The notes beneath the pieces are model-generated. The model was not told where the DNA came from. It searched no databases and saw only the letters and a program-made list of their open reading frames with translations. Below are positions 3,668 to 47,542 of a stretch of 64,000 nt of DNA, one piece after another. The first letter of the stretch is position 1. Each line of letters begins with the position of its first letter. The stretch covers positions 7,017,568 to 7,081,567 of the forward strand of contig NC_057925.1 of the NCBI RefSeq assembly GCF_018873765.1, given 5' to 3'. Source of the DNA: Telopea speciosissima (Eukaryota; Streptophyta; Magnoliopsida; Proteales; Proteaceae). The position numbers were made by a program, and so were the translations under genes.

Positions 3668-6600
3668 ATGGGTAGATTTTCTGTTACTCTTCTGGTCCTA
3701 TTGATTCTCTGTTTGCTATCAACTGAGAAGTTTGCATGTAATGGTGAAACCCATTCCCATTGTCTGGAATCCGATTGGAAAGCTCTTATTCAGTTTAAAA
3801 ATGGCCTCAATGATCCTGAAAATCGTCTCTTGTCATGGCAAGGAAATGATTGTTGTCAATGGAGAGGAGTGCAGTGTGAGAACAGTTCTGGAGCTGTGAT
3901 TGCAATTGATCTCCACAACCCACATCCATATAATAGTTCTGATTCTTCTAACAGGTATGGTTTTTGGAACTTAAGAGGAAATTTTGATCCTGCTTTGTTA
4001 AGACTCAAGTCATTGAAACAGTTGGACCTAAGTCTCAACACATTTGATGGAATCCCAATTCCTGATTTTCTTGGTTCTTTGCAAGAATTGCAATATCTAA
4101 ACCTGTCAAATTCAGGTTTTAGTGGTGTAGTTCCTCCCAGTTTGGGAAACCTCTCTAGCTTGCAGTACCTTGATGTTTCTTCAGGTTTCCCTCCTTTGAT
4201 GGCTAACAGTCTACAGTGGGTGTCTGGTCTCAGCTCTCTGAGACACCTCGCGATGAATGGGGTGGACCTTTCGATGGTGGGATCAGGTTGGGTTCCTATA
4301 TTAGGAACAGGCTCCCATTATTGATTGAATTACATTTATCTTTTTGTGGCTTGACTGGTCCCATTCCATCCCTTCAGTTTGTGAATTTCACTTCACTTGC
4401 AGTGATGGACCTTAGCTTGAATAGCTTCACTTCAAAGTTTCCTGACTGGATTGTAAACATAAGCAGTCTTGTATCTTTGGACATAAGTGCTAACAGGTTA
4501 CAAGGAAAGATTCCCCTTGGTATCTCTGAGCTTCCAAATTTGCGACATCTGAGTCTTGCAGAAAATGGTAATCTTACTGCCAGTTGTGGACAGCTACTAA
4601 AGGGAAGCTGGAGAAGCATTGAGGTACTTGACTTATCTATGAACAGAGTACATGGGAGACTCCCTTCCTCCATTGGAAATATGACTTCTCTGGTTGATTT
4701 TAATTTGTTTGTTAATAATGTTGCTGGAGGGATCCCAAGCTCCATTGGTTTCCTTGCAACTTAAAAAGTTTGAACATAGCAGGTAATAACTTAACAGGAG
4801 GTTTACTAGAATTTCTTGAAGGAACAGAGAACTGCGTCGGTAGGAGTCCATTGCCTAGTCTGATGTACTTAAGCTTGACCAGCAATCAGCTGGTTGGGAA
4901 TTTACCAGAATGGCTGGGGGAACTGCATAATCTAATGAAACTTGATTTGACTAACAACTTGCTTCGAGGTCCAATTCCTGCTTCTTTGGGAAGATTATCA
5001 ACCTTGACAGATATGGGACTTGGGGGGAATAAACTAAATGGAAGCCTTCCTAATTCTATAGGAGAGCTTTCTGAGTTGGTTTCACTTGATGTGTCATTCA
5101 ATCAATTGACTGGGATTGTTTCTGAAGCTCATTTCTCAAATCTAAGTAACTTGAAGTTCTTATTCATATCTGCAAATTCCTTAACTTTGAATGTTAGCTC
5201 CAAGTGGATTCCTCCATTCCAGATCAATAATCTTGACATGGGGTCATGTCAACTAGGTCCCTTCTTTCCTGATTCGCTTGAAACTCAAAAGGAAATCAGT
5301 TTTCTGGATATTTCAAATGCTAGCATTTCAGGCCTTATACCCAACTGGTTTTGGGATCTTTCTTCTAATCTCTCTCTTTTAAATGCATCTTTCAATCAGT
5401 TACAAGGCCAACTACCTAACCCTCTTCCAGTTGCATCCTTTGCAGACATAGATTTCAGGTCCAACCTCTTGCAAGGACCCATTCCTCTTCCATCGGTCGA
5501 GGTTGAATTACTGAATCTCTCTAAGAATCGATTTTCTGGTTCTATTCCATTGAGCATAGGTGATGTGCTGCCAAATTTGGTGTTTCTGTCTCTTTCAGAT
5601 AACTGTATAACAAGTGAAATCCCAGCCTCCATTGGCAAAATGTTGCTTCTAGAAGTCCTTGATCTGTCACAAAATAATCTGACAGGCAACATACCATCAA
5701 GCTTACAGAATTGTTCTTATCTAAAAGCTCTAGACCTTCGACAGAACAATCTATCTGGATTGATCCCATTCCAACTGGGTCAGTTATTAAAGATTCAGAC
5801 ACTGCACCTAAGTGACAATAGTTTATCTGGGGAACTTCCATCATCCTTGCAGAATTGCTCTAGTTTGGAAACTCTAGACATTGGTAACAACAAATTCTCA
5901 GGTAACATTCCACCTTGGATTTACGAAAGGATGACCACTCTTCGAATTTTACGCTTGAGATCAAATCTGTTTTCAGGAAGACTAACTCCTCAACTTTCAA
6001 ATCTGAGGTCATTGCAAGTTCTGGATCTGGCAAATAACAATTTGGTTGGAGACTTTCCAGCCAGCTTAGGGGATCTTCGAGCCATGACACATGTGCAAAG
6101 TGTAAACAAGTATCTACTTTATGGGAAGTACACAGGGCTCTACTATGAAGAGAATGTGGTTATTTCTATTAAAGACCAGGCTAGACAATACACAAAGACC
6201 CTTTCTCTTGTAACCTGCATAGACTTGTCTGGAAATAACTTAGTGGGAGAATTTCCTGAAACAATAACAAATCTCTCAGGCTTAGTTGTTTTGAACTTGT
6301 CAAGAAATCATATCAGTGGGCAAATTCCTGAGAAAATTGCAAACATGCATGAATTAGCCTCTCTTGATGTCTCAAATAATCAGCTGTCAGGGAGCATTCC
6401 TTCCAGCATGGCATCCATGGCTTCTTTGGCTTATCTAAACTTTTCAAACGACAACTTATCAGGAAAAATCCCAGATAATGGGCAGATGACTACTTTTGAT
6501 GAATCTTCATACTATGGAAACCCAGGTCTTTGTGGTCTTCCACTTCTCAAAAGTTGCCAAATTGGTGCTTCAGATAGAAGAGGGACAGTTGAAGATGACA

Positions 6601-6815
6601 GTGATATAAAGGATAAATGGTTTTACTTGAGTGTTGATTTGGGATTTGCAACTGGTCTTTTGGTACCTTGTGTTATTCTAGCAATCAGAAAGCCATGGAG
6701 TGATGCCTACTTTAGTTTTGTGGATATACTTATCAATAGAACATTGCAGATGGGTAGCAGCAGAGCAACATCCCACAGAAACCGACGTCGTTCGACGATA
6801 GTGTACAAAACTTAG
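3668..6815 (+). CDS. LRR receptor-like protein (EIX/Cf-type), frameshifted; possible pseudogene
   Basis: This encodes a cell-surface receptor-like protein, a class that senses microbial or developmental ligands at the plasma membrane together with SOBIR1-type kinases. The first ATG is at 3668, giving MGRFSVTLLVLLILCLLS, a clear signal peptide. In order come an LRRNT cap (SDWKALIQFKNGL, then DCCQWRGVQC), a long run of extracellular plant LRRs (LxxLxLxxNxLxGxIP), an island domain near 6105-6235 (YYEENVVISIKDQARQYTK), the last LRRs, a GNPGLCGLPLLKSC cap, an acidic spacer, one membrane helix (from WFYLSVDLGFATG) and a basic tail of about 45 residues. There is no kinase. The class is normally intronless, as here. 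The frame changes twice: near 4290-4312 (two extra bases or one lost, before NRLPLLIELHL) and near 4752-4757 (one base short, before CNLKSLNIAG). Unless these are sequence errors, translation stops at 4324 and the gene is a recent pseudogene; the remaining 680 codons are open. Confidence 0.88.
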
Positions 6816-6829
6816 ATATTCTCCTCCCC

Positions 6830-6859
6830 CCACCACCACCACCACCACCACCACCACCA
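6830..6859. repeat. (CCA)n microsatellite
   Basis: About nine CCA/CAC units lie just after the RLP stop codon, in the presumed 3' UTR, followed by a short A and T run. Confidence 0.85.
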
Positions 6860-7423
6860 AATTTTTTTTTCTTCTCTCCTATTTGTCCCTCTTGGGCTTC
6901 CTTCCTCCATGAATACAGCTCTGCTTGTTCTGACTATTTGTATAAACCACCACTATTGGTTTTAGCACTTGTGACTTAAGTGTATTCTCTTGCCAGATCT
7001 GGAAAACTGGTCTCTGTCTTGTACTATTATTCCCATTCAAGAAGAAAAATTGAAGGATAGGAGAAGAGCCAAAGTGTTTCTTCTGTATTGAAGTTTCTGC
7101 TATTCTCTCTGTAGTCTGTAACCTCAACTCTTTAATGAACAAAAAATGTCACATGGATATCTACTAATTTGGTGCTTTCTTAATTTGAAGCAGAGAGTGA
7201 ACAACTCAATTTACTGGAAGTAGAAACATTATAACAAGAGAAGAACCCACCTCCAACATTGCTTTTTTTTCTTTTTTTTTTCCTGATTTTGACTGCTAAT
7301 CTTCCCTTCAAATCCATGAAAACAAAGCCCAAAGATCATCCTATGCACCCTTGATCTATTGTCCATATGTTGGCCAAGCGATGCTATAGTATGGAAAAGG
7401 AATCAAAGGAGGTTGGTTTTAAA

Positions 7424-34520: not shown

Positions 34521-34967
34521 TGTTTGAACTGAAGAAATATTAAAGAAGAACAAAGAAAGAAGGAAGGAGACAGAAACGTTTTTAATGTGGTTCGGTTTCA
34601 CTGGAAACCTACGTCCACAGCTCTTGTTATTTTTCCACACTCCTAGCCTTCATCTATCCTCTCTTTATATAGAGGCTTAGAGATAGATATGATTAGTTTA
34701 CAAGGATAAACACTGTGATAAGGATGGGTACAGTGAGTATTACAGTTTGAGTGCACTTGGTCACGATCCTTGAGTTTGAAGGAGTTGGGTTGTAACTCTA
34801 CCACTTGGTCACGATCCTTGAGGTTGGAGGAGTTGGATTGCAACTCAACAACTACAGCAGCCTTGTGCGTTGGTTTAGGGATAATCACTGAGGTGCTCTT
34901 ATCATCTGATCCATTGATCTCTTCAAGAGTGGTTGTTACGGATAAACCATTATCCTTATCGCTAACA
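34521..34967 (-). repeat. Copia-3 3' LTR
   Basis: Read on the minus strand it begins TGTTAGCGATAAGG after the purine tract (TTGCGGGGGCG) and ends near CAGTTCAAACA. It contains a TATA box (CTCTATATAAAGAG, 34664-34677). The other LTR is absent, so no divergence date can be given. Confidence 0.78.
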
Positions 34968-36908
34968 CGCCCCCGCAAGTTCAAGGGTGGCTGAACCTTG
35001 AGCTTGGTACTGAGATGACTGAACCGCTGTCGTGATAGAGCTTTGGTTAAGATATCTGCGATTTGATCCTTGGTGGAGATGAAGCGAACATCAAGATCAC
35101 CTTTAGCAACTTTATCCCGGACAAAGTGGAAATCAATTTCCACATGTTTGGTGCGAGCATGGAACACCGGGTTCATTGTTAAGTAGGTTGCCCCTACATT
35201 ATCGCACCATAGAACTGGTGCAGTAGACATGTAAATCCCTAGTTCATACAATAGAGATTGTAGCCAGGTAAGCTCTGCTGCTGCGTTTGCCACAGCCCTG
35301 TATTCGGATTCGGTGCTGGAGCGTGCAATCGTGTTCTGTTTGCGTGAGCTCCAGGAGATTAGGTTCGTGCCATGGTAGATTGCATAACCACCAGTTGACT
35401 TTCTGTCATCAGGGCAGCCGGCCCAGTCAGCATCAGAGAAGGCATAGAGTTGTAGAGTCTGCTGAGGCTGAAAGTATAACCCATGATTTATGGTAGATTT
35501 TAGGTAGCGTAAGATCCGTTTAACGGCGGACCAATGATCAGTAGTGGGTTTGTGCATAAACTGGCACACCTTATTGACGGCAAAGGCTATGTCTGGCCGA
35601 GTCAGTGTTGCATATTGTAGACCCCCTACAACACTGCGATAAAGAGTTGGATCATCCATGGGTGTTCCTGCTGCCTTCGATAGAGAATGAGTGGTGGCTA
35701 TTGGTGTAGCAATCGGTTTACACCCAGTCATGTTAGTTCGATCAAGAAGATCAAGAATGTACCATTTTTTAGAGAGGTACAGCCCATTAGCTTGTCTAGC
35801 TACACTGAGGCCCAAGAAGTAGTGAAGTTGGCGTAGGTCCTTGATGGCAAAGGTGTCGGCAAGCTTATCAAGAAAGCGTGCAATAAATCTGTTATTGTTA
35901 CCTGTGAGGACAATATCATCAACATAGACCAATAAGAACAATGTGATGCCAGTAGAGCTGTATATGAACAATGACGTATCAGTTTTGGAACCCCGGAAGC
36001 CAAAATCCTGTAGAAACGAACTGAGCCGTTCAAACCAGGCCTGTGGGGCCTGCTTAAGACCATAGATGGATTTGTGGAGTCGACAGACATGATTAGGGTG
36101 TTGTAAATCTGTAAAGCCTGGTGGTTGGGCCATGTACACCTCCTCTTGTAATACACCATGTAAAAAGGCGTTCTGAACATCAAGTTGCCGGATTGCCCAT
36201 GTCACACCCCCATCCCTGAACCACGGGGAATGCAACCAGAGCATACCAATACGCTCTCTAATCACCAGAATCACTAATGCAGTACCCAAGACTAACTCAT
36301 TCACAACGACAAATAATAGGTAAAAGGAAAGGATTAATATTAATAACATCAGAGTTAGCAGAAACTAGGTGATAGCATATAAAATATTGTATATTCAAAT
36401 TTACCCCTTCATATCAATGGATTCTAATCAGGATCTATGTATTATCACTGTTTAATAAATAAACTTATCAAGAAAGGAATAAAAGAATACACCTTTGAAT
36501 CAGAAAATAGTTTATCAAAGTGTAACAAAAGATCGCCACCAGCCAAGAATCACTGTTCCCTCGTGGAACACATCTCACAGTAGCACTCCGGTCCATGATC
36601 CTCATACTCCGAAGTCCACCACTCTTCATGACCTTCTTCAGGAGTCTTGAACTCCATACCGTCCTGCTCGAATGTACCTGCATCAACTAAAAAAAATATG
36701 TTTCCTCGAGGAGTGAGCTCCAACTGAGCCCAATGAGTGGCTAAGCCACACAAGCATACACAATAATAATAATGAATGGGGTTGACTGCAAACCATACAT
36801 GATGGACGGATACCAAGGTGTTCCATACCACCAAGGTAGACCGTACATCACATACAATTTACAATCATGCTACATGAATGAATGATGATGTATAGTTTTA
36901 TTGTTATC

Positions 36909-37552
36909 CACCTAACACACGACTAAGTCAGGTATAGTACTATAGCAACACCTTAGGTAGTATCCCCGACATCGGTACCATAAACGGATGGTATACCTGC
37001 GATGACAAACCCGAGTCGCGCTGGAAGCCTGTCGTACCGGTCTCCACCAAGAAATATACATAAACCCCCAAGTCAAATCCCGTCCTGGCGTTCGGCCCAA
37101 AATACGGTTGGCGCCCGAACTTCCCGGATGGGTATACCCGAATAACGGTCGGAACCCATAGATTTGACCAACACCTAACCCCCTGTCGGTAAGGGTTATA
37201 GTACTGGGTAAACATTTTTCCTAGCCAATCCACCTAACACACAACTAAGTCAGGTATAGTACTATAGCAACACCTTAGGTAGCATCCCCGACATCGGTAC
37301 CATAAACGGATGGTATACCGACGATGACAAACCCGAGTCGCACTGGGAGCCTGCCGTACCGGTCTCCACCAAGAGATATACTCAAACCCCTAAGTCAAAT
37401 CCCGTCCTGGCGTTCGGCCCAAAATACGGTTGGTGCCCGAACTTCCAGAGTGGGTATACCCGAATAACGGTCGGAACCCACAGATTTGATCGACACTTAA
37501 CCCCCTGTCGGTAAGGGTCATAGTACTGGGTAAACATTTATCCTAGCTAGCA
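36909..37552. repeat. 322-bp tandem duplication within E1
   Basis: The unit starting CCACCTAACACAC recurs after 322 bp with scattered differences (GACTAAGTCA against AACTAAGTCA and others). E2 has one related unit near 43286-43550 (CCACCTAACA..., AACCCCTGTTGGTAAGGGTC), so the doubling is specific to E1 or has been lost in E2. Confidence 0.9.
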
Positions 37553-38312
37553 TTCACCTATTGTATAAGTGAGGTACGCATGTGCATAGGCCAGAGGCCG
37601 AGTCCATAGATACCGAAATACGGTCGGCCGGCTATCCTCTCGCTTCTCTAGCCCATACGTACGTATACAAGTACGAGATGTGAATACCGAAGGTAGTCGG
37701 TCGGTCACCATCCCGTTTCCACCTAATGCAATTTACAACTCTAATGCAATTTCAAGTACGGCAATCTCAAGCCCAGCACCCACCGGCACTTGGATCCCGC
37801 TTCCGAAAGCCCTAGATCTACATGCCATGAGTAAGTCCATATTATGGAATCCCCAGGTCCAGCACCAACCGACACCCGAGTCCCATAACTAAATCCAATA
37901 CCATTCGCACCATAGTGCAATAAAATAAATAATATCGCAAGACAAGAATGTAAAGTCCTATCAACATCTAAACATTTATATCGTCCTATATCTTACCAAT
38001 AATTATATATTATAGCACACATGCATGAATGGCATTCGCAAGACACGACACACAAACATTCCATAAATTAAGACGTTTGCTTAACTCACTCACCTTGATT
38101 CTCAGTCAATCGTCAGTACGGAGCTCTTCGAATCGGCGTTCGATGCCAAGTACACTGTCCCACGTACTAATACGCCCCCAAGCTGGGTCAGTCAACCTAA
38201 AGAGAGTGTACAACGTGGGGAGAGATTAGTGCCTTAGGGCTAGAAGAGTTGGGCCCCATAAGTTATCAAACAAGGCTAAAATAGGGGACCAGCACATACA
38301 AGAAGGCTATAT

Positions 38313-38560
38313 CATGTGCCTGTCCATGTGCCTGTCCCCTCTCGGACTTTCCCACCGCAGATCTAGGTTCTCGGGACTGGCACTTGCATGTGTTTGTCCA
38401 TGTGCCTGTCCCTCTCGGACCTCGCACCGGCAGATCTTTCTCAGGGACTGGCACTTGCATGTGCCTGTCCATGTGTCTGTCCCTCTCGGACTTCTCACCG
38501 GCAGATCTAGTTTCTCAGGGACTGACACTTGCATGTGCCTGTCCACGTGCCAGTCTTGCT
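38313..38560. repeat. minisatellite in E1, units of about 71-74 bp
   Basis: Units begin CATGTGCCTGTCC at 38313, 38387, 38458 and 38532 and contain CCCTCTCGGAC and GGCAGATCT. The fourth is partial. E2 has a different tandem repeat (period 83 bp, GTCGGATGC..., 44138 and 44221) at the corresponding place. Confidence 0.9.
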
Positions 38561-39041
38561 GTTCATGCCATTCCGAGAATGGTTTTGCAGCCCAAAGTCT
38601 GGGGCTAAAATGGGGTATTCTTAGGGGTTTTTAGGGGTCTCTTTGGCCATGAGAACAACCCCAACCAAGGTGCCATAGCACACACCCAACATGGGTTTGT
38701 AAACCCCATGATTGATTAGGTTTTCCTCCATTAAAATACATATGGAAAGGAAACTCATGGGTTTGGGTATTGGGGTTTTGAAAGGGCCGTTAATCAATGT
38801 TATTTAACAACCCACAAACCACACATCTATGGTCTTCCATGAGGGTTGGTGAAACCCATAAATGGAGGTGAATCCCCAACTTAGGGTTCATAAATGGAGA
38901 AAGGGTGAAAGGGGGTTCAAGGTAGGATTAGGTGTCTTTATAACTAAGCTTCAAAGATTAGTCATTAATAGCCTTTCCATTAGGGTAGATGAAGCATTCA
39001 TGACTCATAATTCCAAACCCTAGGTCTATAAATTAGGAAGT

Positions 39042-39190
39042 GAGAGAGAGAGAGAGAGAGAGAGAGAATGCTCACCAATGTAGGAGAGCAAGCTTGGGTT
39101 CCACCTCTCTTCCTTCTTCTTCTTCTTCCTTCTTCCTTCTTCTTCTTCTTCTTTTTCTTCTTCTTTTTCTTCTTCTTCTTTCTTTCCTTC
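39042..39190. repeat. (AG)n and CTT-rich low-complexity tract in E1
   Basis: About 13 AG units at 39042-39068 are followed by a CTT/CCTT-rich pyrimidine tract to about 39190. An open frame of Lys and Glu on the minus strand is an artefact of this tract. E2 has a similar pyrimidine tract near 44690-44755. Confidence 0.85.
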
Positions 39191-42170
39191 TCTCCTTTCC
39201 TCTCCACGATTTAGGTCTTCTATTGTGAGGTGAATAGTAGACTGACCCCTATTTACCTCACTTTAGTCTTAAGTCATGTTTGGTTGTCTTAGGTCCTTAG
39301 GTCCATTTGCTTAGGAGCTTGTTTGGTTAGATATAAGCCCAAGGTCTAGTTTAAGTCATTGGGCCATTGGATCCACTTGGGCCCATGTCCTAAGTTCTAG
39401 TTACAAATAGAAAGAGGCTAAGCTCCTAAGCCCAAGCCTATTCTAGTTCTTATGCTTATTAATGGTCATGCATAGGCATGAATTAGTCGGATAGTAACTT
39501 ACTCCCAGTCATCGCTAAGTGGATAAGGGCGATTCAGGTGCGGGCCCCACGGATCCCCATCATAAGGGAATTCCAAGAATATGTTTTCGTGGACGATTTT
39601 CCCCCTGTCTCTGACGATGGATCTTTCCTCGAGGACTTCCCCTGTTTCGCGGTCGACAATCTTGTGTGATGGCTTGAGTATTATGACCCACAGTTCGCGA
39701 GTGTACTCCACTCCCGGTTCTACACAAAAGGTTCAAACCAGACCGGTGGTCAGATCGGGTTTCAAATCGGGTTTTGGGCACGGATTTAACAGCCCACCCC
39801 TTTGAAATAGCCAAAGATAAAATAAGCCGAATTGTAGTTGGTTTGACAACAGGACTGAAGGTCTCTGCGTAATCCGACCCTCTTGTTGATGGAATCCTTT
39901 TGCCACTAAGCGAGTTTTAAAGCGCTCGATAGTCCCATCACCGATCTTTTACCTCAGACACCCATTTGCACCCTACTACATTCATCTTAGGGTGGTGGGG
40001 AACTAGAGTCCAGGTTCCATTACGGATGAGGGCATTAAATTCGGTGTCCATTGCATGACGCCAATTAGGGTCCTTAGAGGCATGTGTATAACACGTTGGT
40101 TCCATAGAATGTGCCACGGATTCGGTTAGGAGAGATATTGGTATGGGATGCTTGGTGGTGAGAAGTATCTTTGGTCGTCTGGTGCCATCCAGGGTTCGAG
40201 TTACCATAGGATGGCTTTGAACCTCCAGAGGTGGCTGAGCCGAAGATGAAGATGGTGGTGGAGATTGGGTAGCCAAGGGTGAGTAGTCCATGGAAGTGTT
40301 GTTTGTAGGAAGAGTAAGGGCAGTATTGGTGTGTGTTGGCTCTATGGTTGCATTAGATGGAGTTGGGTGAATTAATGGAGCAGCATTAGATGTATCTTTG
40401 TGGTGATATAGGAATTGTTGTACCGGCTCGGAGTGGAGCCTTGAGATGTCACGGAAAATAGAGGAAGTAGTGGTGGAGGGCCAAGTATGGATGAGGGAGG
40501 AGTGGGTGGTTCAACCTTATCCGCAGCCTCTTTAAATGGAAACCAATCCTCATCAAAAACAACATGCCGAGATATGATAATTGCCCTTGTGCGCATATTT
40601 AAGCAAGTGTACCCCCTGTGTCTGGAGTTGTATCCAAGAAAGACATGAAGCTCAGAGCGGTAATCAAGCTTATGCTTGTTGAATGGCCTAAGTAGTGGGT
40701 ATCAGGCAGCCCCAAAGACCCTCAAGGTCAGGTAGTCCGGTTGGGTCCCAAATAACTTGAATAAAGGACAAGTATTCCCAAGCACAACAGTAGGTAATCT
40801 GTTAATTAGAAACACAGCAGTAGTAAACCCATTTAGCTCTTTAATTTATTGGTTGTCTTTGTTCCCTAACCGCATATCACATGGGATTTTAGCTTGGTAT
40901 ATATTGTATGATATCTACATATATATCTGCCCTTTCCGAAATCTCGACCGGGTGAGCTCTGCATTGAGAACTCTCCTTTTGTTTTTCCGTATCATATGAT
41001 ATGTGAAAGGGGACAAAATATTTAAGGAAAAAGGCTGGGTATGCTAGCGGTATATCATAAACTAGCACCCTATGTGTGTATCGCTCTCTTTATCATTAGA
41101 ACAGTCAACAAGAACCTATGCGGATTTGATCATCTCCTTGCCATAACTCATATATGGATCTACATTTTACTGGTTTAAATTTGAAGAAAACAATCTTTTT
41201 CTTTAGGTGTCAATAATCAGCCCAAACTGATTGGACCGATCGAAACCGGAATTGAACTCCTTGTCAGTTCGGTTTCAATCCAATTCAACTGAAGTAAGAT
41301 AAGAGATTGAACCAAATTGAACTGATAGCTATCGGCTTCGGTTTGGGTTATACAAACTGACCAGTTTATTGATCCTATTTTAATCTGAAGTAATATATGC
41401 AAAAATTTTGAAAAAATTGATGGAAAACCGAACCAGATACCTATACCTTTTTTCCATGAGTTTAAGTTAACACTCAACAGTGATAGTGGCATTAATTAGA
41501 ATACCCACTGGAATGGTTTAGTGAGAAGTGATCATCAAGTTGGGGGTACGATGTTTTGTATTCCGTCACGGCGTCACATGGGTTTGTGGGCTGATTCCAA
41601 AAGGACGTTAAAAGGCCATAGGGCCCGAGGTCCGAAGGAATCGGCCCACTCTATGTTTTATCTTTGCTATTGAGGGCTCAACGAACTAGAGGTGCATGGT
41701 GGGGGTTAGGGGGGGCGCTGGGCGGCAATACTGAGATTATTTTTGGGGGGCTATATGGGTATTTCGATAATGTGTCTATGTGGGTTTTACTAAATTTTAT
41801 ATTGAAGGTTCATTCTCTGTAATGTGAGAGAAGCATGAGGACGAGTACCTTTAACCCTATTCTCCATTGATGGTGAAATGGATGTCATTTTTTTTTTTTT
41901 ATAATAATAAAAAATAAATATATTAACACATAAAATTTACATTGCCCATTTACAACAAAATGTTTTGGAGGACGATTTTCCCCCTGTCTCTGACGATGGA
42001 TCTTTCCTCGATGACTTCCCCTGTTTCGCGGTCGACAATCTTGTGTGATGGCTTGAGTATTATGACCCACAGTTCGTGAGTGTACTCCACTCCCGGTTCT
42101 ACACAAAAGGTTCAAACCAGACCGGTGGTCAGATCGGGTTTCAAATCGGGTTTTGGGCACGGATTTAACA

Positions 42171-45100
42171 GCCCACCCCTTTGAAATAGCCAAAGATAAA
42201 ATAAGCCGAATTGTAGTTGGTTTGACAACAGGACTGAAGGTCTCTGCGTAATCCAGACCCTCTTGTTGATGGAATCCTTTTGCCACTAAGCGAGCTTTAA
42301 AGCGCTCGATAGTCCCATCAGCCAGTCTTTTTACCCTGTACACCCATTTGCACCCTACTACATTCATCTTAGGGTGGTGGGGAACTAGAGTCCAGGTTCC
42401 ATTACGGATGAGGGCATTAAATTCGGTGTCCATTGCATGACGCCAATTAGGGTCCTTAGAGGCATGTGTATAACACGTTGGTTCCATAGAATGTGCCACG
42501 GATTCGGTTAGGAGAGATATTGGTATGGGATGCTTGGTGGTGAGAAGTATCTTTGGTCGTCTGGTGCCATCCAGGGTTCGAGTTACCATAGGATGGCTTT
42601 GAACCTCCAGAGGTGGCTGAGCCGAAGATGAAGATGGTGGTGGAGATTGGGTAGCCAAGGGTTGTCACGCCCCTATTCCAGACAAGGAATATAATATCAT
42701 ATAAAGGGTGACTAGGACGACGCGTGTCATCCTACTAAACCGCCCGGATCACTGACACAGTGTCCCAACGCACAGTCATATCCAATATTAACACAATGTA
42801 ACATTAGAATGCAGAAAAGAGGAATATTACATTCCAAGGATCAGTAGTATTGCGGAAGCGTATAAATCGAATAGTTACAAGACGTTCAAAGCTAGATGAT
42901 AAATACAGTAATTAGTTACATTTCCAATGATCATCTAATAACTATCAAAAATGGTATTACAGTAAGTATTTCACCATAGGCCTTAGCCTCAAAAGTAATC
43001 AAAAAGGGATCGAGTCCCGAATATCCTCACGGCCCGTAGGCACAATCATCGCAAGGACACCCGTCGCCATGTTCCTCAAACACGGCCTCCGGTTCCTCCT
43101 CACCGATCTCATCGTATCCCGAGGGCTGAACTCCAAGTCCCGCGAGATATCCGTCACCTGCACCATAATCTAAAAAAATGTGCGCACGAGGGGGTTAGCT
43201 CCACTGAGCCAGTGAGGGGATGGGAATGCACAAACACGCAATTCACATAGTCCAATGATGCATGCACATGTTAAGTCCATTTTTCCACCTAACAAACAAC
43301 TAAGTCAATGGCATATGCTCATCGTGACAACTCGGGAGACACTCGTGGGTCACTTAACTTATCGCCACAATGAAACCTCAATTGTCACGTGGGACCCACG
43401 CCGATCGAAGCCTCCAAGACCACTCGGTGGCGGCACTGATAACCAATACTACCATGATGGCCTCTCCCACCTCCACGTAATCCGGTGTATCGATTACCCA
43501 ACACCTAAACCCCTGTTGGTAAGGGTCGTAGCATAAGGGTGTGAAATCCTAGCCACAAATATACTACATGCAAGTCCTATCGTCCCGAGAGGTAATCCGG
43601 GCGCATCAACTTTTCATCTGGTTTAGTGCCCGGTTACCAGCACGGCACGGCGCATACAGTTCAACATGACATTCAACATAATTTCTTCATAAATGTTTAT
43701 AAAGTTCGAGGAGTCTCGCAGACCCACTCCACCGGCACCGAGACCCATCAAGATACAACATTATCAATCAACATTATAACAAATAGATATAAAATTATGC
43801 AATATGCGCACACATGCTTATTAATTATAATGAGTACATAATATATAGTGCAATAGTAATAACAAGCCCAAACAACCAAACCCACTCACAACGTATACGC
43901 CAAGCACCCAGTTTATCAGTTGTCGCCTCGATCAAGCAATAAGCCACAAAAGTGAATATTTTAACCTATACAAAGAGTGGAATAAGGTTAAACGAGCGAA
44001 AGGAACGGATCCCCAAAAGATCTCCCATAAACACTTAAGTATAAGGTTTCAGAGACGAAGTGGTTGCAGGAGTGGTTTCATGCCCAAATTCTGCAACCAC
44101 ATGTAAATCCTAGGAAACCGGGACAGTTTTAGTCAAGGTCGGATGCAGATGTGGTTTCAGAAAAACTGAATCCAAGTGTAAATCCGAGCTTCACAGGGGC
44201 TCAGGACAATTTTTGCCAAGGTCGGATGCGGATGTGGTTTTGAAAAATCAACGAAGTGTAAATCCGACCTTCACTGAATCCTTCTCGGGAAGGTAGTTTC
44301 AGGGGTTTCTTGCAGGTCTGAAATCACATGTAACCCTCACACCTTCAGGTCCAAAATCCGAAGGATTCCCCTCCAAGGACCCCATTTCAAGTGGTTTTTA
44401 AGGCACAAGGACTTCTAGAAAACTCTATCCTAAGCTCCTTAGGGTCCAACCTTAAATCCCCCCAAATGGCAATGAGAACCCTCACATTAGAGCTCATAAT
44501 GGAGTGAACTAACTCCACCATAGCTTGGCTTTAAAGCTCCATCTACTCCCTAGGTTCCAAGAGAGATCTAGGTCAATCTCTCCCATTACCCAACCCCTTT
44601 TTGAAACCCAAAATAGAAGAAGGAAGAAGCTTACCTACCCCCAAGATGAGAGCTCCACGATTTCTGCCCAAGAGATGGGGTCTCCACCTTCCTCCAAGCC
44701 TCTCTCTCCTTCCTCTTTCTCTTTCTCTCCTCTTTCTCTCCTCTTTCTCTCCTCCACGATTTAGGGTAGAAGAGGATGTTGAAGAAGAAGTAATGTTCTC
44801 TCCCCCTCCTCCTCTCTTTTATAATAAATGGGTATTTGGGGTACCTCAAGTCAAATGGGTCATGAGGCCTAATGGGTCAACCCATTAGTCCTATGTGGGT
44901 AAGTGGATGGAATAACCCACCATTGGGCCAATAGGTTAATTGGGCCTGCCCACAACCTTAATTAGGGAAAAGCCCATTCTTAGATGGGTTCATATGAGAT
45001 GGGTTTAAGTCCCCAATGTACTTCCTAAAGGTACGCGGGACCCGAACTTAAATTATTCCCTTCTCTCATGAAATAGCTCGAGCGGTTCCAGCCCGGACCC

Positions 45101-46075
45101 GCACTTCGAGGTTACCAAAGGAAAAATAATTAGTAAGACTTGAGGCTAGAACTTACCTTTTCCCCTGTCATGGTTTATTACCCATGACCCCGAACAGCTT
45201 CGCCACGGCAATGCTAAGCTCATCACCGAACGAAATATCCAGCTGAGGTGACGGTCCAGGATGCTCTCTCCTGAACTCCTCGCTTCCCGGGCTGGTACTT
45301 GGAGGGTAGTCGACGAAGTCGCCGTCAACGAACTTTCCCCACTGGCGGTTGAGGAATCTTTCCTCCACAGGCAATCCCGTGTTGTGGTCAACGATTTTGT
45401 AGCTAGGTTTGACCATCATGGAGAACAGGTCACCAGCATACATGGCAGCGGTATCTACACGTCACGAGAAGAAATGATATTTAATTATATCCCGGGGTAC
45501 GGGTATAACAAGGGTGAGTAGTCCATGGAAGTGTTGTTTGTAGGAAGAGTAAGGGCAGTATTGGTGTGTGTTGGCTCTATGGTTGCATTAGATGGAGTTG
45601 GGTGAATTAATGGAGCAGCATTAGATGTATGCTGTGGTGATATAGGAATTGTTGTACCAGGCGTCGGAGTGGAGCCTTGAGATGTCACGGAAAATAGAGG
45701 AAGTAGTGGTGGAGGGCCAAGTATGGATGAGGGAGGAGTGGGTGGTTCAACCTTATCCGCAGCCTCTTTAAATGGAAACCAATCCTCATCAAAAACAACA
45801 TGCCGAGATATGATAATTGCCCTTGTGCGCATATTTAAGCAAGTGTACCCCCTGTGTCTGGAGTTGTATCCAAGAAAGACATGAAGCTCAGAGCGGTAAT
45901 CAAGCTTATGCTTGTTGAATGGCCTAAGTAGTGGGTATCAGGCAGCCCCAAAGACCCTCAAGGTCAGGTAGTCCGGTTGGGTCCCAAATAACTTGAATAA
46001 AGGACAAGTATTCCCAAGCACAACAGTAGGTAATCTGTTAATTAGAAACACAGCAGTAGTAAACCCATTTAGCTC
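42171..46075 (-). mobile_element. second copy of the Copia-3 fragment, split by E2
   Basis: This repeats the 39792-40838 piece of Copia-3 (start of reverse transcriptase and end of integrase, minus strand) through the tandem duplication. It lies in two parts, 42171-42662 and 45511 to about 46075, on either side of E2. It is not an independent insertion: it carries the same end of E1 (41960-42170) at its side. Confidence 0.88.
42663..45510. mobile_element. E2: 2.85-kb TG...CA element related to E1
   Basis: It starts TGTCACGCCCC and ends GGGTATAACA, with target duplication AGGGT at 42658-42662 and 45511-45515; copy A of the tandem repeat shows the empty site. Layout parallels E1: a GAGCCAGTGAGGGG-like stretch near 43210, a CCACCTAACA block, an 83-bp tandem repeat, a pyrimidine tract ending CTCCACGATTTAGG, and two minus-strand protein-like blocks (near 45260-45443 with KPSYKIVDHNTG, and near 43032-43168 with EEHGDGCPCDDC). 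No gag-pol is seen. E1 and E2 are clearly diverged, so they are separate insertions of one family. Confidence 0.82.
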
Positions 46076-47203
46076 TTTAATTTATTGGTTGTCTTTGTTC
46101 CCTAACTGCATATCACATGGGATTTTAGCTTGGTATATATTGTATGATATCTACATATATATCTGCCCTTTCCGAAATCTCGCACTGGCAGGAGCTCTGT
46201 GCATTGAGAACTCTCCTTTTTGTTTTTCCGTATCATATGATATGTGAAAGGGGACAAAATATTTAAGGAAAAAGGCTGGGTATGCTAGCGGTATATCATA
46301 AACTAGCACCCTATGTGTGTATCGCTCTCTTTATCATTAGAACAGTCAACAAGAACCTATGCGGATTTGATCATCTCCTTGCCATAACTCATATATGGAT
46401 CTACATTTTACTGGTTTAAATTTGAAGAAAACAATCTTTTTCTTTAGGTGTCAATAATCAGCCCAAACTGATTGGACCGATCGAAACCGGAATTGAACTC
46501 CTTGTCAGTTCGGTTTCAATCCAATTCAACTGAAGTAAGATAAGAGATTGAACCAAATTGAACTGATAGCTATCGGCTTCGGTTTGGGTTATACAAACTG
46601 ACCAGTTTATTGATCCTATTTTAATCTGAAGTAATATATGCAAAAATTTTGAAAAAATTGATGGAAAACCGAACCAGATACCTATACCTTTTTTCCATTA
46701 GTTTAAGTTAACACTCAACAGTGATAGTGGCATTAATTAGAATACCCACTGGAATGGCTTAGTGAGAAGTGATCATCAAGTTGGGGGTACGATGTTTTGT
46801 ATTCCGTCACAGCGTCACATGGGTTTGTGGGCTGATTCCAAAAGGACGTTAAAAGGCCATAGGGCCCGAGGTCCGAAGGAATCGGCCCACTCTATGTTTT
46901 ATCTTTGCTATTGAGGGCTCAACGAACTAGAGGTGCATGGTGGGGGTTAGGGGGGGCGCTGGGCGGCAATACTGAGATTATTTTTGGGGGGCTATATGGG
47001 TATTTCGATAATGTGTCTATGTGGGTTTTACTAAATTTTATATTGAAGGTTCATTCTCTGTAATGTGAGAGAAGCATGAGGACGAGTACCTTTAACCCTA
47101 TTCTCCATTGATGGTGAAATGGATGTCATTTTTTTTTTTTATAATAATAAAAAATAAATATATTAACACATAAAATTTACATTGCCCATTTACAACAAAA
47201 TGT

Positions 47204-47542
47204 TGTCTATGCAATAAGGCAAAATAAATCAAAAAGTTAGTAAAAATCAGCTAGGGAGGGTCTGATGATAAGAGAGCGGAATTCCTATGATAACATCCAA
47301 AATCTTCAAAAGGAGAGGAACCAAGTGCCAAGGCCAAGAGATTTTTGGAACAGATGTCATTTCGTGGACGTAGAAAATCATGTCGAGCCACATTAATCCT
47401 TTCGTTTATGTGATTGTTTGTTTGTAATTTTCATTTGTTTTACATATCGTCATAGGTTTTTTATTTCTACACACCATTGATGAGGGATCCTTATCATGTA
47501 CGAATTCTAACATAGTCAGAATATATAACATCATATCAGAAG
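47204..47542. other. intergenic stretch after the duplicated block
   Basis: This is the unduplicated sequence that follows the tandem repeat. I recognise nothing in it. Confidence 0.5.

Follow-up and report, generated by a model that had tools for sequence, protein, structure and literature searches.

Conserved protein blocks in two solo LTRs of Telopea speciosissima: putative spliced exons of a chromovirus integrase tail

In group A of the CRM chromoviruses the coding region reaches into the 3' long terminal repeat (LTR), and the part encoded there is the CR motif, which is putatively a targeting domain; in some Reina elements (Bingo) the coding sequence likewise extends into the LTR, as far as the available parts of the two sources go (PMC3059260, PMC3605345). 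Outside CRM the chromodomain lies upstream of the polypurine tract, according to the accessible text of the second source (PMC3605345). Splicing is described, in the available sections of the respective papers, for the Ty3/gypsy element Ogre, between its two open reading frames (ORFs) and with the intron between PROT and RT (PMC6317226), and for BARE, in which a spliced mRNA splits the RNA pools (PMC3735527). The extra ORFs of plant LTR elements covered in the accessible part of PMC7264820 lie between pol and the 3' LTR, none of them within the LTR. Here we describe E1 and E2, two diverged LTRs in a 64,000-nucleotide stretch of the Telopea speciosissima genome (contig NC_057925.1, positions 7,017,568 to 7,081,567; the whole stretch is called the window), which share conserved protein-like blocks on the minus strand. 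We propose that these blocks are exons that would extend pol into the 3' LTR as a spliced integrase tail, a reading to which we give a probability of about 0.72.

E1 and E2 are read as LTRs of chromodomain-bearing Ty3/gypsy elements. E1 (36200..39791, minus strand, 3592 bp) and E2 (42663..45510, minus strand, 2848 bp) both run from TG to CA between perfect 5-bp target-site duplications (GCCCA at 36195-36199 and 39792-39796 for E1; AGGGT at 42658-42662 and 45511-45515 for E2), have no internal region and have relatives with two LTRs, as expected of solo LTRs. An earlier reading made from the letters of the window alone, here called the sequence-only reading, had described two diverged TG...CA elements bounded by LTRs, in agreement with these ends and duplications. 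Relatives were searched in the window's own genome (G000, 823 Mb, a single plant genome), where 40 of 582 candidates were scored for E1 and 40 of 2029 for E2. E1 belongs to a non-autonomous family: in six E1-type elements (L009-L014) the paired LTRs are 94.6-100% identical over the 0.6-1.5 kb compared, and the internal regions of 2.3-3.3 kb start with TTGGTATCAGAGC or close variants, finish in a purine-rich tract and, read by eye, contain nothing beyond remnants, for instance a CCHC knuckle. E2 belongs to a pol-bearing family with three LTR pairs spaced 10.4-10.9 kb apart, in whose interiors Pfam recognises RVP_2, RVT_1 and RT_RNaseH (fragments of L022) as well as SH3_Tf2-1 and Chromo (a fragment of L021; Chromo at 28.5 bits with a cutoff of 25.1). 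This is the order of protease, reverse transcriptase and RNase H with a C-terminal chromodomain by which chromoviruses are recognised. The polypurine tract lies downstream of the chromodomain coding sequence and the primer site TTGGTATCAGAGC is present, both features of the Tekay/Del layout; from this layout we take the elements to be Tekay/Del-like, and TGGTATCAGAGC is presumably a tRNA-Met primer site.

E2-type elements also carry an ORF on the other strand. In L020 a 382-codon antisense ORF (6164-7309, plus strand of that record) between the 5' LTR and a gag-like ORF belongs to Transposase_32 / putative plant transposon protein (PF20167, 78.6 bits), and L021 and L022 have shorter antisense ORFs with similar residues. 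The L020 ORF recalls the antisense ORFs of Retand/Grande, yet sits on the opposite side of gag-pol.

Block 1, the putative exon A, is conserved between E1 and E2 as protein. The predicted exon spans 39503..39719 in E1 (minus strand; acceptor AG at 39720-39721, GTAAGT at 39497-39502) and encodes E/PGVEYTRELW...KPSHKIVDRETGEVLEER...LSDDW, where slashes mark exon boundaries; in E2 it spans 45182..45454 (minus strand; acceptor GTGTAG/AT, donor ATGG/GTAATA at 45176-45181) and encodes D/TAAMYAGDLFSMMVKPSYKIVDHNTGLPVEER...KLFGVM. It opens 56 bp (E2) or 72 bp (E1) inside the LTR. The DNA shared by E1 and E2 is slight, consisting of short pieces of which the longest is 56 bp. Over 44 aligned codons of block 1, 19 residues are identical, 13 of them through different codons, including a serine written TCA or AGC, and the BLOSUM62 score of 89 compares with a maximum of 16 among 20,000 shuffles of one peptide. 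In tblastx E1 and E2 match with a sum E of ~1e-14, with blocks 1 and 2 co-linear. The conserved protein block that the sequence-only reading had seen near one end is therefore real at the level of codons. An antisense origin with equal conservation at all codon positions is ruled out: the positions of the primer site and the polypurine tract make the minus strand of the window the sense strand, and the differences per codon position are 18/11/27.

Both putative splice signals of exon A are retained among distinct copies, counted after removal of duplicates (12 of 69 exon A rows). E1 copies keep the acceptor AG and GTAAGT in 33/33 and an open frame in 28/33, and E2 copies keep the acceptor AG in 24/24, the donor GTAATA in 23/24 and an open frame in 22/24. 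The GTAAGT noted earlier behind block 1 in both elements thus stands for E1. In E2 it lies at 45156-45151, past an in-frame stop, and copies there read AGTAAGTT (17/24), GGTAAGTT (6/24) or are gapped (1/24); the in-phase donor is instead the GTAATA at 45181-45176. A Pfam search with four peptides at E up to 10 gave no match, in line with the earlier remark that no familiar domain matches the block, and a profile search of the PDB reached a best E of 0.48. The predicted structure of exon A has a mean pLDDT (predicted local distance difference test score) of 50.4 and a pTM (predicted template modelling score) of 0.29.

A donor-like site directly behind the chromodomain would join pol to exon A in phase. 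The E2 chromodomain ORF extends to ...PFLAYLQ/GTACGT, followed by the inverted repeat TTYGAGGACGAAATT directly behind the donor, the polypurine tract and the LTR. Joining CAA G/GTACGT to GTGTAG/AT would give ...LQ-D-TAAMYAGDLFSMMVKPSYKIVD..., and in E1-type loci, L170 included, CTA G/GTACGT joined to GTGTAG/AA would give ...RYL-E-PGVEYTRELW...KPSHKIVD. If left unspliced, the pol frame stops after 23 codons in L021 and near the polypurine tract in L145, and E2 exon A lies in another frame. Donor motifs at the end of pol include CAAG/GTACGT (E2), CTAG/GTACGT (E1), CAAG/GTAAGC and CCAG/GTATGT; the donor splits its codon past the first base in most readable loci. Among copies with the repeat upstream, GTACGT is found in 5/6 of the E2 type (one GTACAT) and 7/7 of the E1 type.

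The same arrangement recurs across the genome. The pattern TTYGAGGACGAAATTY has 1028 exact sites, compared with 2 for its reversed control, and AGGT precedes the repeat by 8-10 nt at 635/1028 sites, compared with 0 for the reversed pattern and ~12 expected by chance if equal base frequencies are assumed. In 100 listed AGGT sites, position +3 is A in 93 and +5 is G in 93 while +4 varies without restraint (A45/C41/T14); the distance from donor to repeat is spread over all three frames (71/16/13). In unspliced RNA +4 would be a second and +5 a third codon position. Coding constraint would preserve the former and loosen the latter, and a 5' splice site the other way round, so the site fits a splice signal better than codons, with CpG decay accounting for some of the +4/+5 change. 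We also fetched 28 loci at the repeat (20 + 8), which are related and do not constitute independent trials. GT stands at the donor spacing in 20/28; a recognisable pol tail is present in 18 of those 20 (not in L152 and L159), and the phase is 1 in 16/18. Entered through an in-phase acceptor, an LTR frame stays open for at least 45 codons in L145, L146, L148, L149, L166 and L170 (by script) and in L155 and L161 (by eye). Donor and acceptor thereby keep pol in frame in E2, E1-type and second-type loci, with the exceptions given below.

The second type of LTR exon, GQEPLIRQPGSLWSITPVTWIDEETLC...DPCKCIAH, opens in phase in L145, L146, L148, L149 and L166 and is lost in L150. A genome search with the L148 peptide, in which 150 of 6240 candidates were scored, found 138/150 stop-free, a share biased upwards because these are the best-scoring copies. 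Four further loci (L147, L156, L157, L161) bear W...P peptides that are possibly related. Several of the 150 hits form same-strand pairs ~11.3 kb apart, which suggests complete elements of one large family. The hits also give the impression of being concentrated mid-chromosome.

Block 2, the putative exon B, lies near the other end of each LTR. In E1 the exon-B-like block (36550..36686, minus strand) follows the acceptor TTTTTTTTAG and ends ...EDHGPECYCEMCSTREQ and a stop; E2 exon B (43027..43169, minus strand) follows the acceptor TTTTTTTAG/AT and encodes D/YGAGDG...EEHGDGCPCDDCAYGP before a stop. Nine of 25 residues are identical between the two, which together with the co-linear tblastx match bears out the second block proposed earlier. 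E2 copies keep the AG in 25/25, the stop after CPCDDCAYGP in 25/25 and an open frame in 18/25; E1 copies keep the AG in 21/22 and an open frame in 13/22, with no frame preference. The E2 join of exon A to exon B is phase-compatible (donor ATG G/GTAATA, acceptor TTTTTTTAG/AT), so that in E2 the phases close at two junctions, pol to A and A to B. The splicing that the sequence-only reading had called conceivable is supported to this extent by predicted in-phase donors and acceptors.

Sequence motifs point to a candidate start region between the two blocks. In E2 a TATAAAA (LTR position 688) is followed by CCTAAATCGTGGAG (LTR position 746; together 44752..44823, minus strand). E1 has a copy of the shared CCTAAATCGTGGAG (LTR position 577; 39202..39215, minus strand) and, unlike E2, no TATA motif near it. 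With such a start, we infer, U3 would contain exon A and R would contain exon B. Further short DNA motifs are 87-96% identical between the two LTRs, which otherwise hardly align; in sense coordinates they lie at 2269-2299, 2596-2624, 2540-2563 and 2862-2888 of the E1 LTR and at 1980-2013 and 2204-2230 of the E2 LTR, and are doubled within E1 through a 0.32-kb tandem repeat. They are possibly cis signals of the RNA leader.

The predicted frames show a shortage of amino-acid changes in E2 exon B, in the second exon type and between families. Variants were placed at random on distinct copies (24 for E2 exon A, 25 for E2 exon B, 33 for E1 exon A and 22 for E1 exon B, shorter matches being dropped). 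In E2 exon B 7/18 variants are nonsynonymous (P = 0.004; other frames 0.94 and 0.68), and in the second exon type 27/51 (P = 0.002; 5 of 6 copies, the decayed L150 being excluded), with two of three second-type pairs at P = 0.004 and 0.002. Between families the predicted frame gives P = 0.018 (E1 vs L155), 0.049 (E1 vs L170), 0.047 (E1 vs E2) and 0.046 (L170 vs E2), values that are nominal and, as the comparisons share sequences, not independent. Control frames gave P > 0.5 in 17/18 tests; for E1 vs L155, E1 vs L170, E1 vs E2 and the second type the eight control tests lie at 0.58-0.94. Protein-level selection, for which the sequence-only reading had argued, is thus seen in part: E2 exon B appears constrained and the families mostly so, E2 exon A is not significant and E1 looks neutral. 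This pattern would fit families that are constrained as long as they remain active, with drift setting in for E1, which is non-autonomous.

In the proposed mechanism, an intron of ~0.1 kb holding the inverted repeat, the polypurine tract and the start of the LTR would be removed, and the spliced mRNA would encode integrase, chromodomain and exon A. In E2, splicing of a second intron of ~2 kb would then add exon B, with CxCxxC at its end, behind exon A. Unspliced RNA would serve as genome and as the source of the shorter pol. Because the first intron holds the polypurine tract and the first bases of the LTR, spliced RNA would be translatable but not properly reverse-transcribed. What the tail does is a guess; most likely it would help to target integration or bind a partner, as has been proposed for chromodomains and for the CR motif of CRM. 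E1 would represent a non-autonomous family whose LTR exons are now drifting, and exon copies in solo LTRs, both of those in the window included, are relics. Of the two steps, the one from pol to exon A is the better supported; the one from A to B is drawn from E2 only. We see about even odds that much of the Tekay-like chromovirus population in this genome is arranged in this way, with the polypurine tract and the boundary between interior and LTR intronic, an integrase tail in the LTR that is modular and evolves fast, and splicing as a switch between unspliced RNA that is replicable and encodes a short integrase and spliced RNA that is a dead end and encodes a long one.

Several observations weigh against this mechanism. 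E2 exon A, where copies were chosen by DNA similarity, has 5/10 nonsynonymous variants (P = 0.16, not significant), and the E1 exons look neutral (59/88, P = 0.31 for A; 63/79, P = 0.83 for B). L148 vs L166, the third second-type pair, reaches P = 0.078, L170 vs L155, with 11 differences, is low in frame 1 (P = 0.045) and not in the predicted one (0.94), and L157/L161 show no frame preference. Eight of the 28 loci have no GT at the distance expected of the donor (L147, L151, L153, L154, L156, L163, L164, L169), L154 being also without a polypurine tract; the donors of L160 and L162 are out of phase, the in-phase GT counted for L171 is not preceded by AG and is not its AG/GT, and L168 has a donor with no in-phase route to an LW-like frame among the AGs scanned. 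The second (LW) exon type gives no clear alignment with the KPS type and is very diverged from it. In E1 exons A and B do not join in phase (GA/ followed by TTGA makes a stop), 7/25 copies of E2 exon B have frame gaps, and exon B would need transcripts crossing most of the 3' LTR, for which the support consists of motifs. The pol frames are broken in all three E2 elements examined (L020-L022), and the gag-like and integrase-core fragments of L022 (2/6 proteins) had no Pfam match and were identified by eye. The model as a whole is known from the DNA of one plant genome.

The sequence-only reading had favoured a gene that a non-autonomous element had captured or carried as an accessory. This fares poorly, given that the blocks sit just past the elements' own chromodomain and would join it in phase over the putative intron. 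A separate accessory gene within the LTR, having a start of its own or being spliced from a different exon upstream, and contributing no integrase tail, would account for blocks that are protein-conserved and lie within the LTR and for an early methionine in E2 exon A. Its animal precedent is sag of mouse mammary tumour virus (MMTV), a protein encoded in the 3' LTR. We regard it as unlikely: the donor directly behind the chromodomain, its phase and the way its frame shifts with respect to the repeat are best accounted for by a join to pol, and the part of E1 exon A shown contains no methionine. Noncoding regulatory DNA, such as polypurine-tract context and U3 signals with incidental frames, agrees with the extreme conservation of the inverted repeat (1028 sites vs 2 in the reversed control) and with the variation of E1 copies irrespective of frame; it is made very improbable by the shortage of amino-acid changes in the predicted frame between families and in E2 exon B, by donor-like constraint at +5 with none at +4, and by the phase closure of E2 at two introns. 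Capture of a gene by a non-autonomous LTR element, which the E1-type interiors of 2.3-3.3 kb and the lack of any Pfam family for the blocks might suggest, is scarcely credible, as pol-bearing E2-type elements carry the same block, E1-type loci have it right behind the chromodomain tail, and constraint is absent in the non-autonomous family.

The inverted repeat itself was considered apart from its place in the putative intron. A role as RNA hairpin is not supported: C-G, T-G, C-A and T-A forms are all seen, as CpG decay predicts, and the folds predicted for seven junctions disagree. In viral_contigs the 16-base repeat pattern matched 79 stretches, of which 6 passed the script filter and none resembled an element end, and a longer pattern had no match. 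In genome_contigs one match was found, L172 (contig LFMX01000071.1 of Candidatus Burkholderia humilis, a leaf-nodule Burkholderia record). It has the repeat and polypurine signature in decayed form and no AGGT before the repeat, which weighs against a universal donor; it is probably plant retrotransposon DNA in a bacterial record, from host contamination or a chimeric contig. An 11-mer occurs among the printed sequences of 15 papers, and the occurrence examined is an unrelated primer.

The E1 end recurs in shortened form (LTR bases 1-221) at 41950..42170 on the minus strand; this second copy is 97% identical to it and belongs to a local tandem duplication with a unit of ~2.38 kb. Taken previously as a further instance of block 1 (41960-42170), it provides no independent evidence. 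Copies are spaced 2379-2382 before E2 and 5235-5241 past it; because the difference equals E2 plus its target duplication, E2 was inserted into the tandem duplication afterwards. In the surrounding window (34643-47204) a Ty1/copia-like pol region, seen by eye from its ORFs, is interrupted by E1 and partly duplicated in tandem, with the E2 insertion in the second copy.

Tekay/Del elements rank among the most numerous retrotransposons of plants. If the spliced tail is real, their integrase would be longer than annotated, with a part missed that possibly decides the insertion site, and polyprotein annotations would be one or two exons short. LTRs, which are usually regarded as noncoding and are used as neutral clocks, would be partly coding and would form a reservoir of swappable targeting domains, with solo LTRs as ready-made exons that include splice sites. 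The model further lends itself to a simple test of the way in which a retroelement keeps translated RNA apart from RNA that is replicated.

Among known systems, MMTV sag differs in being a separate accessory protein of an animal virus, whereas the exons of E1 and E2 are read as a tail of pol. BARE splicing reportedly yields a Gag message. Ogre and BARE, as described in the available text, are alike in that splicing sets the polyprotein made or divides RNA pools, and in neither is it seen to reach into the LTR. No spliced LTR exons of pol were recognised in open-access titles and abstracts. The elements resemble Tekay/Del in the order of protease, reverse transcriptase, RNase H, SH3 and chromodomain, in the TTGGTATCAGAGC primer site and in the chromodomain upstream of the polypurine tract, and differ in their putative LTR exons, of which the accessible part of PMC3605345 makes no mention. 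With CRM group A and Bingo, as far as these are described there, they would share a chromovirus pol that enters the 3' LTR. In CRM group A this pol is a single ORF through the polypurine tract, an unspliced passage that L021 and L145 do not have; in the E1/E2 type the continued frame meets stops, an intron would be needed, and the added peptide follows the chromodomain.

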